Below are positions 15,718 to 29,037 of a stretch of 34,226 nucleotides of DNA, piece after piece. The stretch lies in the NCBI GenBank assembly GCA_016181895.1, contig JACOYL010000003.1:1-34226 (forward strand), given 5' to 3'. The stretch's first letter is position 1; the number at the start of each line of letters is the position of its first letter. Below the pieces are notes generated by a model. The model saw only the letters and a program-made list of their open reading frames with translations. It made no database searches and was not told the DNA's origin. A program made the translations under genes and the position numbers. This stretch comes from Candidatus Pacearchaeota archaeon. GTDB lineage: Archaea; Nanobdellota; Nanobdellia; Pacearchaeales; GW2011-AR1.

Positions 15718-15727
15718 CTGAAAAAAA

Positions 15728-15735
15728 GAGGTGAG
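15728..15735 (+). promoter_or_regulatory. Shine-Dalgarno sequence of the hisS operon
   Basis: GAGGTGAG lies two bases before the ATG at 15738, within a run reading AAAAAAAGAGGTGAG. It is a good complement of the archaeal 16S rRNA 3' tail (AUCACCUC). It stands out because most genes here appear leaderless, and it supports translation from a transcript that runs on from tRNA-His. Confidence 0.6.
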
Positions 15736-15737
15736 AA

Positions 15738-16157
15738 ATGATAACGTGGAAAGAATTTGAGGAATTTGTGAAAAGATGGCCAATCTGGTTGAGTGTACTC
15801 CTCTTATTTATACCAGGACTGATGTTCAAACTTCAAAGGGGTTTTCCTATATCTGAATATGGTGGAAGTTTAATAATTATTTTGTTAATGATTTCACTTT
15901 ATTATTCTCTCCCCTTTCTATTTCTTGGTTTTGCATATAGATTTATATGGAATTCTAAAGAAGAATATAATGCAGAAGATTTATTATACATAACTAGTGT
16001 GGGAGTAATTGGATATATGATTACAAATAAAGTTTGGATAGAATTAAGTTACAAGGGATACAATATTGATTTCTGGTATATTTGGCTTTTTTTAGTAGCA
16101 TTTGGAATTATAATAGTAGGAGTTAAAAGTTGGATTAAAACACAGAGGAAAAAATGA
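15738..16157 (+). CDS. Polytopic membrane protein, hypothetical
   Basis: A 139-residue protein with about four hydrophobic spans (about 16-32, 44-70, 85-98, 110-128), a cytoplasm-type basic C-terminus (KSWIKTQRKK) and no recognisable transporter signature. It is the first gene of an operon directly after tRNA-His and overlaps the phosphatase gene by four bases (ATGA). Its link to tRNA-His/HisRS is positional only. Confidence 0.75.
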   Translation: MITWKEFEEFVKRWPIWLSVLLLFIPGLMFKLQRGFPISEYGGSLIIILLMISLYYSLPFLFLGFAYRFIWNSKEEYNAEDLLYITSVGVIGYMITNKVWIELSYKGYNIDFWYIWLFLVAFGIIIVGVKSWIKTQRKK

Positions 16158-16573: not shown

Positions 16574-16758
16574 AAAAACAAGAAAGACGGGAATTGATAG
16601 AAGAATTTAATTTAATAATAGGTTCAATAGGGGTATTTTTAATACTCTTAGGAGGATTTAGGCTATTAAACATAAATACTAATTATCTTATTTTATCATT
16701 AATTGTTATTGGAATTATACTTTTCGTTTGGAAATTAATACTGGAGAATAAAAAATGA
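16570..16758 (+). CDS. Small two-span membrane protein
   Basis: A 62-residue protein with a charged N-terminus (KKQERRELIEEF), two hydrophobic helices (about 15-33 and 38-56) and a basic tail. It overlaps the phosphatase gene and hisS by four bases each (ATGA), so it is translationally coupled. No family recognised. Confidence 0.75.
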   Translation: MKKQERRELIEEFNLIIGSIGVFLILLGGFRLLNINTNYLILSLIVIGIILFVWKLILENKK

Positions 16759-25103: not shown

Positions 25104-25514
25104 ATGAAGAATCATAAATTAATTAACCAGAAATCTTATGAGATTTCCACCGAGGCGTTAATAGGAGACATAAAAGAAGAAAAGGTTTTGGGAAAAATTA
25201 CTTCTGCCTATCCCGCTAAAATGGAAGTTTCACCCCTTTCTCCAAGGTTTCCAGCCACATCTCTGACAATTTATAGCTTTGAAAGAGAAGAAGAAATTCT
25301 CGGCGCTTTTCCAAGAGAGTTATCAGAAGAAGAGTTAAGAGTTTTATTAACCAAAAATCAAACAGTTAAATATTCTCATCAACTGACGGAAAAAGAACGT
25401 TTATTTAAATTGGAAATATTAAACGGTTTTAACAAAGGATGGACGCTTGAAGGTAGAATAGAAAGATTTAATCGGTCTACTTCTCAGATTCATCAATCTC
25501 TTTCTCTTCAATAA
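25104..25514 (+). CDS. Hypothetical protein, 136 aa
   Basis: The ATG at 25104 is chosen over longer in-frame openings because GAATTTATAAATG sits about 26 nt upstream, and the longer frame overlaps the transporter's hydrophobic codons. The protein is soluble and mixed, with an acidic segment (FEREEEILGAFPRELSEEELRV) and a basic C-terminus ending HQSLSLQ. No family recognised. The last 38 bases overlap the convergent scpA gene. Confidence 0.6.
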   Translation: MKNHKLINQKSYEISTEALIGDIKEEKVLGKITSAYPAKMEVSPLSPRFPATSLTIYSFEREEEILGAFPRELSEEELRVLLTKNQTVKYSHQLTEKERLFKLEILNGFNKGWTLEGRIERFNRSTSQIHQSLSLQ

Positions 25515-26322
25515 TTTCTTCCTCTCCATTCTTCAAATCATCAAAATGATTTTGATTCCTTTCAAAGAAAGTTTCCTTGTACCAAACATTTATGTCGCCG
25601 AAATGTTCTTCTTGATGAAGCCAGATTTTTTTCTGGTTTTCAAGATGCAGCAATGACGTGAAAGTGTAAATTTTCCCGTCTTTTTCATTTCCGACAAGAA
25701 CTGAAAACGGGACAAATCCCTCGCCGTTATTTTTCAAACATTCAAACAATCTTTCATAAATTTCTTTTATCCTGTCATTTATCGCGAATTTTCTTTTTGG
25801 CAGGGAAAAAGAAGCGTCAATCAAAGCCCTGTTGTTTAAAACCTCTTTTCTTATCCTCCTGTTTTCGGTTATTATCGCCTTGTTTAACGATTCAACCAAC
25901 TCGTTTATGGTGACTTTCCTGAATCTCGGCAGCGGACTTTTTGGAATCAACTCGGGAATTTCCTCGTCCAGTTCGATTCTTTCCATGATTGTTTGCTTTT
26001 TTTCCCTGCTTCCGAACAAGATTTCGTCGATGGTTTTTATGTATTTGTTCAGCAGGATTTCGGATTTTATTCTCAAAAGCAAGGCGGCGGCAAGAAGCAC
26101 CTTGCTGGAAACAAAATAATTCTCCTCGAGTTCCTGGATTTTCTCGAGATATTTATTTGTAAGGACGGTTATGTCGACGTTCCATGGATCAAGTTGCTCT
26201 GAATTAATCAAATCGTAAATGATTTCCTGCCAGCCGATTTCCTTGCTGAAAACAACGCTGTGAATTTTTTCCTGGTGAATGTTTATATCTTCACTTTTTT
26301 TAATTTCCTCTTGTTTTTCCAT
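25477..26322 (-). CDS. scpA: ScpA-like kleisin (segregation and condensation protein A)
   Basis: A 281-residue ScpA family protein, the kleisin that bridges SMC heads in chromosome condensation. N-terminal pattern: IYDLINSEQLDPWNVDITVLTN near 40-60 (family: D-P-W-x-I-D/V-x-x-L-T), then the YLEKIQELEE and LLAAALLLRIKSEILL helices (about 65-95). The C-terminal winged-helix part contains GKIYTFTSLLHLENQKKIWLHQ. Acidic tail. scpB is not adjacent; it may be elsewhere. TATA-like AGATTTATAATC about 25 nt before the ATG. Confidence 0.9.
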   Translation of the reverse strand: MEKQEEIKKSEDINIHQEKIHSVVFSKEIGWQEIIYDLINSEQLDPWNVDITVLTNKYLEKIQELEENYFVSSKVLLAAALLLRIKSEILLNKYIKTIDEILFGSREKKQTIMERIELDEEIPELIPKSPLPRFRKVTINELVESLNKAIITENRRIRKEVLNNRALIDASFSLPKRKFAINDRIKEIYERLFECLKNNGEGFVPFSVLVGNEKDGKIYTFTSLLHLENQKKIWLHQEEHFGDINVWYKETFFERNQNHFDDLKNGEEEIIEEKEIDESEK

Positions 26323-26409: not shown

Positions 26410-26703
26410 ATGGATCAGACAGAGATGGCTGGAAATTATGCAAGAGTCATAAGAGGAGGGCTTATGAAAGGCTACAGAATTGGAAGATTAACACGGGAGA
26501 TTTCCGCGCATAAAGAAGGGGATATTTTATTGTACATGCTGGAAAATGGAGAAATTATATTGGAAGGTTTGTTGGAAATAAATGAGGAAGAAATCAAATG
26601 CAGATTAGAGAATAAGGATTCGATATCGCAATATAGGGTTGCGCCGCCGCTTTCTCCTGAATTAATTGAAGAAATTTCTTTAGAAGAGTTGTGTAGTGTC
26701 TAA
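26410..26703 (+). CDS. Hypothetical protein, 97 aa
   Basis: A small soluble protein: basic N-terminal half (RVIRGGLMKGYRIGRLTRE), then strand-like alternation (GDILLYMLENGEIILEGLLE) suggesting a small beta-barrel, and an acidic C-terminus. A TATA-like TAATTAAAAAG lies about 24 nt before the ATG (leaderless). No family recognised. Confidence 0.65.
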   Translation: MDQTEMAGNYARVIRGGLMKGYRIGRLTREISAHKEGDILLYMLENGEIILEGLLEINEEEIKCRLENKDSISQYRVAPPLSPELIEEISLEELCSV

Positions 26704-26797
26704 TAAATATCAAAGTAGTACCTAATAAAGTTATCAATAATCACTACTAAGAAAAAGAAACCTCTCGTCATTCTTTAAGAGTAACAAAACCGAAACA

Positions 26798-26805
26798 TTT
26801 ATATA
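26798..26805 (+). promoter_or_regulatory. TATA box of a leader RNA
   Basis: TTTATATA preceded by CGAAACA (a plausible BRE). The predicted transcription start is about 26827, in the first copy of the tandem repeat, leaving a leader of about 114 nt before the ATG at 26941. An inverted pair TAGAG/CTCTA at 26804-26820 straddles the region just after the TATA box and could be an operator. Confidence 0.5.
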
Positions 26806-26821
26806 GAGGTTCAATCTCTAT

Positions 26822-26861
26822 TTTCTATCACCTCTTTTTCCTTTCTATCACCTCTTTTTCC
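26822..26861 (+). repeat. Exact 20-bp tandem repeat, two copies
   Basis: Copies at 26822-26841 and 26842-26861, each TTTCTATCACCTCTTTTTCC, identical. On the + strand each contains ATCACCTC, the core of the 16S rRNA anti-Shine-Dalgarno tail; on the - strand each reads AAAAAGAGGTGATAG, like a strong ribosome-binding site. Only two units, so it is not a CRISPR array. Confidence 0.9.
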
Positions 26862-26913
26862 CCAGGAGAGCGTTCAGGTCATCTTTTTGACTGGCTTGAA
26901 AACTCTCCCAGGG
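26861..26913 (+). ncRNA. Strong imperfect hairpin in the leader of the 26941 gene
   Basis: Stem of CCC/GGG (26861-26863 with 26911-26913), then GGAGAG/CTCTCC (26865-26870 with 26903-26908), TTCA/TGAA (26873-26876 with 26897-26900), and GTCA/TGAC (26878-26881 with 26888-26891) around a TCTTTT loop, with internal loops between. This is far more pairing than expected by chance in AT-rich sequence. It may be a cis-acting leader or an independent small RNA; no known riboswitch or guide-RNA motif is recognised. Confidence 0.55.
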
Positions 26914-26940
26914 TTATAGTAAAAAGATAAAAATAAATAA

Positions 26941-27219
26941 ATGGGAATAAAAAATCTTGTTGGAGATTTGCTAGGATATGGAAGATGCCCCGTAACAAAT
27001 GATACTTACTGGCATGCTGATATTGTTTCAGTTCCTTATTCAGAAAATTCAGGTGTTCTGATTTCAGCAAGGGCATTGAATGATGTTCCAAAGGAAAAAA
27101 TAGCGGATATTGTATTTCGAATGGGTCAAAGAAACAGAACTATCAAGAATAGATATTCAATTGAACAAATAGCCAATCAAATTCCCAAAGAATGCAGAAG
27201 ATTGACGACTGGTTTATAA
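26941..27219 (+). CDS. Hypothetical protein, 92 aa, with structured leader
   Basis: A small soluble protein with one Cys in YGRCPVTN and another in KECRRL. The middle is beta-like (HADIVSVPYSENSGVLISARA) and the C-terminus helical and basic. I recognise no family. Upstream is the structured leader at 26798-26940; a secondary TATA-like TTATAGTAA about 22 nt before the ATG could give a leaderless transcript instead. A 39-nt stem-loop follows 19 bases after the stop. Confidence 0.65.
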   Translation: MGIKNLVGDLLGYGRCPVTNDTYWHADIVSVPYSENSGVLISARALNDVPKEKIADIVFRMGQRNRTIKNRYSIEQIANQIPKECRRLTTGL

Positions 27220-27238
27220 TCATTAAATTTATTTAAGT

Positions 27239-27520: not shown

Positions 27521-27730
27521 TTATTTCTTATTAAACTCCGAATAATGACACTTCCCGCAATACAATCTTCCCTGCGATTCCATCAGGAAAACGCCCGCTC
27601 CGCAACGAGGGCAAAATTGTTTTCTCGTGACTTTGTCCCCGCTGATTGTGTATTTTGCATATTTCTTGCTCGTCGGCTTGTTCTTGTGGGGCTTTTTGCC
27701 CTTCTTCACTGATTTCTTTTTCTTTCCCAT
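27521..27730 (-). CDS. rps27ae: Ribosomal protein eS31 (S27Ae)
   Basis: A 69-residue small-subunit protein: Lys-rich N-terminus, then YTISGDKVTRKQFCPRCGAG, VFLMESQGRLYCGKC and a C-terminal HYSEFNKK. The CPRC...CGKC zinc finger and the G-x-FL-x-x-x-x-R spacing match archaeal S27Ae. The N-terminal basic tail is longer than in many archaea, where the protein is about 50-65 residues. Last gene of the Rpo7-Spt4-eS24 operon; the 56-base gap to eS24 suggests co-transcription. Confidence 0.95.
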   Translation of the reverse strand: MGKKKKSVKKGKKPHKNKPTSKKYAKYTISGDKVTRKQFCPRCGAGVFLMESQGRLYCGKCHYSEFNKK

Positions 27731-27786: not shown

Positions 27787-28065
27787 TCAGGCTGGTTGAG
27801 CAGCTGCTTTTTTTGGCTTCGGCTCAACCTCTTCCTTGATTTCTTTTGAATTGTAAACAAAGGCGGAAATATGAAAAATTTTCGAGCCGAAATTTCCCGA
27901 TATTTTTTTTATCGCAATCCATTCCTCCGGCGTTGAAAATTCCTTGGAAATCATTTTTTCCGCGTCTTCTTTTTTTATTGAAGTGTCTGATTCAATTTCC
28001 ACATAAACCTCTTTTCTCTTGAACAAAGGATTTTCCTTTTCCGAAATAATTTTTAAAAATTTCAT
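27787..28065 (-). CDS. rps24e: Ribosomal protein eS24
   Basis: A 92-residue small-subunit protein of the archaeal/eukaryotic eS24 family: EKENPLFKRKEVYVEIE at 9-25, the KISGNFGSKIFHISAFVYNSKE block, and an EEVEPKPKKAAAQPA tail. It starts one base after the Spt4 stop, in an order (Rpo7, Spt4, eS24, eS31) widely conserved in archaea. Confidence 0.94.
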   Translation of the reverse strand: MKFLKIISEKENPLFKRKEVYVEIESDTSIKKEDAEKMISKEFSTPEEWIAIKKISGNFGSKIFHISAFVYNSKEIKEEVEPKPKKAAAQPA

Positions 28066-28422: not shown

Positions 28423-29037
28423 TTATTTTTTCTTCTTTTTTCCCCCTTTTGTTTTTTCAGCCTTTTCCTCGTCTCTTGAAATTTTCTTTGAAACCCTTTC
28501 CTTTTTGACTTGATCTTCTTTTATCCACTCGATTTTTCCCAATCCCGGTTGTCTCATTGTCAATCCTATTTTCGGGAAATCTCCCTTGTGGCTTATTGCT
28601 ACAATTCTTGCCATGCACAAGTCTCCGGATTTCAGGCTTCTCTTGGAAGATTTTCCGGACAAAGTATTTGTTTTGCTCATGCTTACATAATCCTCCATTG
28701 TCTGCCCTATGTGAATCATTCCCTTCAAAACGCCCATGTCGATGAAAGCCCCGAAATTTGTTATCTCTGTTATGTTTCCGAAGACGATTTCCTGCAGCTC
28801 CGGTTTCCATGTGACAAGTTTGAATCTCGAATTGTAGTAAGCCGCTCCGTCGCCGGGAATTATGACTCCGTCGCCGACTTCGAGAACCTCGACGATGGCG
28901 ACAACCTTTCCCATTTCCTTGTCGTAATAATCCTGGTAAATTTTCTTAAGCTGGTTTTCAACAGCCTCTATTGTAGGCAATCCAAAAAGTCTCGGCTCAA
29001 CCCTTACATAATCCTGAACTTCTGTCAGATAGAACAT
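28423..29037 (-). CDS. rpo7: RNA polymerase subunit Rpo7 (E')
   Basis: A 204-residue homologue of eukaryotic RPB7, the stalk subunit that works with Rpo4. The N-terminal tip domain begins MFYLTEVQDYVRVEP and runs through GDGVIIPGDGAAYYNSRFKL. The S1 RNA-binding domain contains FGNITEITNFGAFIDMG, LKGMIHIGQ and MARIVAISHKG, ending in PKIGLTMRQPGLG. A Lys/Glu-rich tail (after about 170) is an extension beyond the usual ~185-190 residues. First gene of the operon leading to eS31; its promoter is half of a perfect palindrome shared with the 29099 gene. Confidence 0.96.
   Translation of the reverse strand: MFYLTEVQDYVRVEPRLFGLPTIEAVENQLKKIYQDYYDKEMGKVVAIVEVLEVGDGVIIPGDGAAYYNSRFKLVTWKPELQEIVFGNITEITNFGAFIDMGVLKGMIHIGQTMEDYVSMSKTNTLSGKSSKRSLKSGDLCMARIVAISHKGDFPKIGLTMRQPGLGKIEWIKEDQVKKERVSKKISRDEEKAEKTKGGKKKKK

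Follow-up and report, generated by a model that had tools for sequence, protein, structure and literature searches.

A small RNA gene with a conserved anti-Shine-Dalgarno-like 5' tail and its possible role in the translation of SD-led messages in archaea

Small RNAs with an anti-Shine-Dalgarno (anti-SD) motif are known from alphaproteobacteria, where alpha-r14/NfeR1 combines an ultraconserved anti-SD motif with divergent stems (PMC10746234). The alpha-r14 and 'cuckoo' RNAs are bacterial, contain three hairpins and carry CCUCCUCCC in the unpaired regions of these hairpins (PMC10746234). In the methanogen Methanosarcina mazei, sRNA154 and sRNA41 are reported to mask ribosome-binding sites (RBSs) by base pairing (PMC5867862). 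These two RNAs have specific targets (reached through loop 2 in sRNA154), and a phylum-wide invariant tail is not reported there (PMC5867862).

A small RNA gene was identified in the archaeal DNA analysed here, a stretch of 34,226 nucleotides referred to as the window. Its product resembles the alpha-r14/NfeR1 and cuckoo RNAs in its unpaired anti-SD motif, dissimilar stems, repeated modules and predicted multi-target antisense action (PMC10746234), and it resembles sRNA154 and sRNA41 in being archaeal and in the RBS masking, reported for that pair and proposed here (PMC5867862). In contrast to the alpha-r14/cuckoo RNAs, it has a single hairpin, preceded by a 5' tail that carries CACCUCUUUUU, and most genes of its phylum are SD-less. 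Neither CCUCCUCCC in unpaired hairpin positions nor an alphaproteobacterial distribution was found: the motif is the CACCUCUUUUU of the 5' tail, and the listed pattern matches are archaeal except for a few strays. The eukaryotic U7 snRNA is a short RNA composed of a 5' tail directed at a purine-rich mRNA element, a U-rich Sm site and a hairpin, and functions in the 3' processing of histone mRNA. The window RNA has the same order of tail, U-tract and hairpin, its Sm site being putative. The C (RUGAUGA) and D (CUGA) boxes of C/D box sRNAs are not among the conserved alignment columns, and there is no conserved ACA of the H/ACA type, the 3' end being GGGUUU(A). A scan of the window against Rfam 15 returned four tRNAs only, the RNA region gave only chance matches at a relaxed E-value, and none of ten homolog loci came near the gathering score; the family is absent from Rfam 15. 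A phylum-conserved regulatory RNA of DPANN archaea, this one included, was not found in the open-access literature searched.

The small RNA is almost certainly encoded by an independent, stand-alone gene (Table 1). The predicted product of about 50-75 nt consists of a single-stranded 5' tail, (AU)CACCUCUUUUU, a CCC...GGG-clamped hairpin and GGGUUUUA. An earlier note on this DNA, made from the sequence alone, had placed a TATA box at 26798 and an RNA start near 26827. The box is present as TTTATATA, with CCGAAA just 5' of it, and the start fits the promoter spacing across loci. Of 124 distinct loci, 114 have a TATA box that starts 28-31 bp ahead of the A of ATCACC (29 bp in 93), which puts the probable transcription start at or next to (AU)CACCUC. 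The conserved unit reaches upstream into the promoter and is independent of the downstream ORF. A motif search with the upstream element GTCATT...AGAGTAACA gave one match in the genome sample of G000 and one in that of G003, both at the RNA. The hairpin, described as strong in the earlier note, has a folding energy of -27.5 kcal/mol (z = -4.0), and the 5' tail is unpaired in the centroid fold. Two 20-bp repeats had also been pointed out; they are exact tandem copies, but they are not essential, one tail per unit being the norm in relatives, and the duplication is local and particular to the window's genome. The suggestion that the minus-strand copies serve as tandem RBS-like sites failed, as the promoter spacing, the covarying stem and the U-rich 3' end are all on the plus strand and there is no suitable minus-strand ORF.

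Table 1. Positions of the small RNA gene, its parts and the neighbouring genes in the window
Feature	Position	Strand	Remark
scpA	25477..26322	-	lies divergent to the RNA gene in many relatives as well
Upstream element GTCATTCTTTAAGAGTAACA	26767..26786	+	precedes the TATA box of the RNA; kept in many relatives
Promoter, BRE-like CCGAAA and TATA box TTTATATA	26790..26805	+	TATA box itself 26798-26805
Exact tandem duplication, 2 x 20 bp TTTCTATCACCTCTTTTTCC	26822..26861	+	copies 26822-26841 and 26842-26861
Small RNA gene	26827..26919	+	start predicted from promoter spacing; covariance model R2 match 26846-26919
5' tail copy 1, AUCACCUCUUUUU	26827..26839	+	anti-SD core CACCUC plus U5; extra copy by local duplication
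5' tail copy 2, AUCACCUCUUUUU	26847..26859	+	abuts the hairpin directly; copy common to relatives
Hairpin, CCC...GGG clamp	26860..26913	+	compensatory changes in the variable stem among relatives
GGGUU(U)-A/U-rich 3' end	26911..26919	+	presumed termination region, predicted
92-aa ORF	26941..27219	+	outside the feature; homolog-less among 56 relatives
Ribosomal protein S27ae gene	27521..27730	-	convergent conserved neighbour
Ribosomal protein S24e gene	27787..28065	-	convergent conserved neighbour
rpoE1/Rpb7 gene	28423..29037	-	convergent conserved neighbour

Conservation of the repeat and stem in relatives, which the earlier note had set as a test of its proposal, was found together with covariation. 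A DNA search with positions 26700-27230 gave matches in 43 of 56 genomes, the window's own among them, mostly over the promoter-to-hairpin stretch, and CACCTCTTTTTnCCCAG was present without mismatch in all 20 of the best loci when three mismatches were allowed. The sequence CACCUCUUUU was intact in 20/20 loci of the DNA search, 20/20 divergent genomes with otherwise dissimilar stems, 20/20 further members and the paralogs, a near-invariance partly favoured by member recruitment since the tail was scored by covariance-model and pattern searches. This sequence appears to be the invariant core, with its CACCUC part common to 16S rRNA, and the tail appears to be the part under sequence constraint. 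The U5 is invariant among the members compared. Distant members have a short hairpin of dissimilar sequence, often with a UUCG loop, and nearly all contain CACCUCUUUU-(U)-CCC and GGGUUU. Several Woesearchaeota-type genomes contain two complete units in tandem, 47-147 bp apart; the repeated part is tail plus hairpin, which therefore constitutes the module. Divergent second copies of the RNA (L090:2432-2508 and L132:1648-1712) retain CACCTCTTTT.

The stem covaries. In a covariance-model alignment of 86 sequences, which was fitted to the structure and hence favours covariation statistics, pairing cells amounted to 94.3% vs 78.9% in shuffles, two-sided changes numbered 175 vs 48 expected from shuffles, and the covariation score was 0.445 vs 0.171, with 0 of 500 shuffles as high. 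Shifting the partner by one column lowered pairing to 62%. A direct count in the ungapped basal stem gave the same picture (e.g., GC 80, AT 18 and TA 8 at pair 4).

Of 378 genomes in the class sample, 261 were matched by the covariance model, as were 207 of the 279 in the phylum sample (the samples overlap). About three in four sampled genomes of the phylum (Pacearchaeota, Woesearchaeota) have the RNA. Among 31 listed genomes with no model match, the tail module was detected by pattern search in 7 and was absent from the other 24. A pattern scan of GTDB found at least 113 stretches, nearly all of them in records named Pacearchaeota, Woesearchaeota, Nanoarchaeota or archaeon. A Pedobacter locus and one other (L075) are stray pattern matches that have no hairpin end. 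The full archaeal RNA is also present on a contig labelled Aminicenantes (L084) and on one labelled Bacteroidetes (L109), both probably misbinned.

SD-type motifs are rare 5' of genes and SD-bearing genes are few, in line with the earlier expectation of few SD-dependent mRNAs. When every ORF was crudely assumed to start at its first ATG, the regions 5' of 2313 genes contained AAAAGAGG 30 times and AAAGGAGG 28 times, compared with 2 and 1 occurrences, respectively, in a background window. The 14-nt tail fell below -10 kcal/mol with 70 RBS windows vs 22 control windows (1528 genes, four genomes). This excess of 48 was reached by 0 of 80 shuffles (mean 1.5, maximum 40); with the threshold at -12 kcal/mol, three of the shuffles equalled the real tail. 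By computation, the RNA thus has the accessible stretch, complementary to RBSs above chance, that characterizes anti-RBS antisense sRNAs. RBS complementarity exceeded control in all five sampled sRNA-bearing genomes (13-34 vs 3-9), together with SD-type enrichment. The sRNA-less genome G056, the one genome on which SD absence in sRNA-lacking lineages rests, gave 0 vs 8 in the control and no SD motif enrichment. A 16S-like tail complements the RBS windows at least as well as the RNA tail does. AGAGG and GGAGG are preceded by similar A-runs, those of AGAGG being no longer, so the sites resemble ordinary SDs within A-rich sequence and show no visible tuning to the RNA; tuning of RBSs to the RNA over 16S was rejected on these equal A-runs. 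The 12-nt complement AAAAAGAGGTGA at 15723-15734, which the earlier note had assigned to the RBS of the tRNA-His/hisS operon, is real, but the gene that follows it encodes a 139-aa hydrophobic protein (at 15738, no Pfam match), and hisS is the ORF at 16755, three ORFs beyond. Pyrimidine runs of the TTTTCTTT type are strongly enriched just 5' of start codons, at -22 to -3 (43 vs 5; G000, G003, G012, G045 and pooled loci), and are probably an initiator-like signal of leaderless genes.

The best reading, with an about even chance of being correct, is a class-wide anti-SD antisense sRNA that acts on SD-led mRNAs and is possibly bound by SmAP. Once transcribed, the predicted single-stranded tail (AU)CACCUCUUUUU, complementary to the SD-type RBS consensus AAAAAGAGGUG(AU), would pair in the cell with the RBSs of SD-led mRNAs and keep the 30S subunit off. 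SD-type sites serve a minority of mRNAs, the SD-less remainder being presumably leaderless, and the RNA would act as a class-wide repressor that turns down the translation of this minority, presumably in response to a controlling signal. The variable hairpin with its U-rich end would provide stability and termination, and the invariant U5 beside it would suit an SmAP/Lsm ring as chaperone. The blocking of SD-dependent mRNAs was already proposed in the earlier note, and we infer it here as well. A broader version is somewhat less likely than not: the RNA may be a DPANN phylum-wide switch by which SD-led mRNAs are selectively repressed while leaderless translation continues, the anti-SD mimic being retained in carrier lineages and absent where 16S has lost the anti-SD. 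If the mechanism holds, the RNA is an archaeal counterpart of the bacterial anti-SD sRNAs and could help to explain why a small SD-led set, enriched in secreted or membrane proteins, persists in genomes where SD-less genes predominate. Its fixed tail and fixed promoter spacing make it a marker RNA that is searchable in existing metatranscriptomes.

The alternatives follow in descending order of probability. The first, which is unlikely, is a decoy of the 16S 3' end: the tail would mimic (GG)AUCACCUC and titrate a binder of the 16S end (aDim2/Pno1, Nob1 or an initiation factor), coupling ribosome maturation to growth. The GGAUCACCUCC stretch is a binding site of archaeal Dim2 and of bacterial Era, and the commonest tail form, AUCACCUC, is identical to the 16S tail. 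However, the invariant part of the RNA continues into UUUUU-N-CCC, which is missing from the 16S tail, and the bases preceding CACC vary (UU, AC, AA). The 16S 3' tails of relatives are GGATCACCTCCT, with variants in three genomes; those of sRNA-bearing relatives contain CACCUCC, or UACCUCC in two, and the anti-SD element that the earlier note had required of the 16S 3' end is carried by relatives as CACCUCC or a one-base variant. The window genome's own 16S is truncated by the contig end. The 16S ends with GGATTACCTCCT in G009 and G012 and with GGACCACCTCCT in G033. The 16S tail has changed to GGAUUACCUCC in G009 and G012, whereas their RNA tails retain ATCACCTC; that of G033 has TACACCTC. The RNA thus does not follow the 16S tail, and strict 16S mimicry was rejected for lack of co-variation. 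Pairing to 16S or its near flanks was also rejected, the complement being inconsistent. The single-base changes in the 16S anti-SD region are GGATTACCTCC (two genera) and GGACCACCTCC, at loci L045, L055 and L043 (G012, G009 and G033, respectively).

In G056 and its relative G069 (family f13; L415 and L419), the 16S 3' end is GGATCTAGTTAA and has no anti-SD, whereas 16 other sRNA-lacking genomes retain CACCUCC. Anti-SD loss coincides with RNA absence in one lineage, and RNA absence does not require anti-SD loss. Since the anti-SD persists in many lineages without the RNA, its retention does not make the RNA indispensable. The coincidence in G056 agrees with the proposed repression of SD-led mRNAs and is not proof of it.

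The second alternative, also improbable, is an Sm-type ribonucleoprotein with another job. The U5 and adjacent hairpin would form an Sm-like site, and the tail would lead an SmAP ring to purine-rich RNAs that are then processed or degraded, by analogy with U7 snRNA, without a block of initiation. The order of tail, U-tract and hairpin, the U5 invariance among compared members and the presence of an Lsm protein gene in nearly all genomes (18 of 20 and 48 of 50) are in its favour. The SmAP site is putative, however, and Lsm genes are equally frequent in genomes with and without the RNA. Lsm therefore does not single out the RNA, and its presence was rejected as a correlate.

The third, likewise improbable, is an antisense sRNA of narrow scope that acts on only one or a few mRNAs (e.g., those of pilins or secreted proteins), in place of a general SD blocker. 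AAAAGAGG sites occur at some pilin-like genes (G012, G045, G000), and hydrophobic segments at the N terminus are more frequent in SD-type genes (34% vs 18%, uncorrected p = 0.012). This enrichment is, however, equal for both motif classes, canonical SD genes included, and most of the pilin-like genes found have other sites or none. Pilins were rejected as a dedicated target class on this mixed evidence. No conserved individual target was detected in 137 ortholog groups, where the real tail performed no better than altered tails.

A cis-acting leader RNA or riboswitch of the 92-aa ORF, as the earlier note had it, is suggested by the position of the RNA about 25 bp 5' of that ORF in the window, and is refuted by the missing homologs (self-match only in a search of 56 genomes) and the convergent downstream neighbours, its chance being close to nil. 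No conserved same-strand downstream gene was found, and the RNA recurs in relatives beside other neighbours and without the 92-aa ORF. The scpA cluster lies beside the RNA in 82 of 120 loci, mostly divergently; S24e, S27ae and rpoE1 do so in 54, 48 and 30 of the 120, respectively, mostly convergently. The gene order around the RNA in the window (scpA; S27ae-S24e-rpoE1) is the one often conserved in relatives. A 97-aa ORF beside the RNA gene (26410-26703) has no Pfam match; this ORF and the 92-aa ORF are possibly spurious or orphan. The short repeats GTAGTRYCTAA and TTACTACTTT are located 5' of the RNA promoter in the window (26693-26725) and in part of the relatives, and at least one GTAGTGCCTA-like copy lies upstream of the promoter in 44 of 124 loci. 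These repeats may be sites for a regulator or may belong to the scpA promoter.
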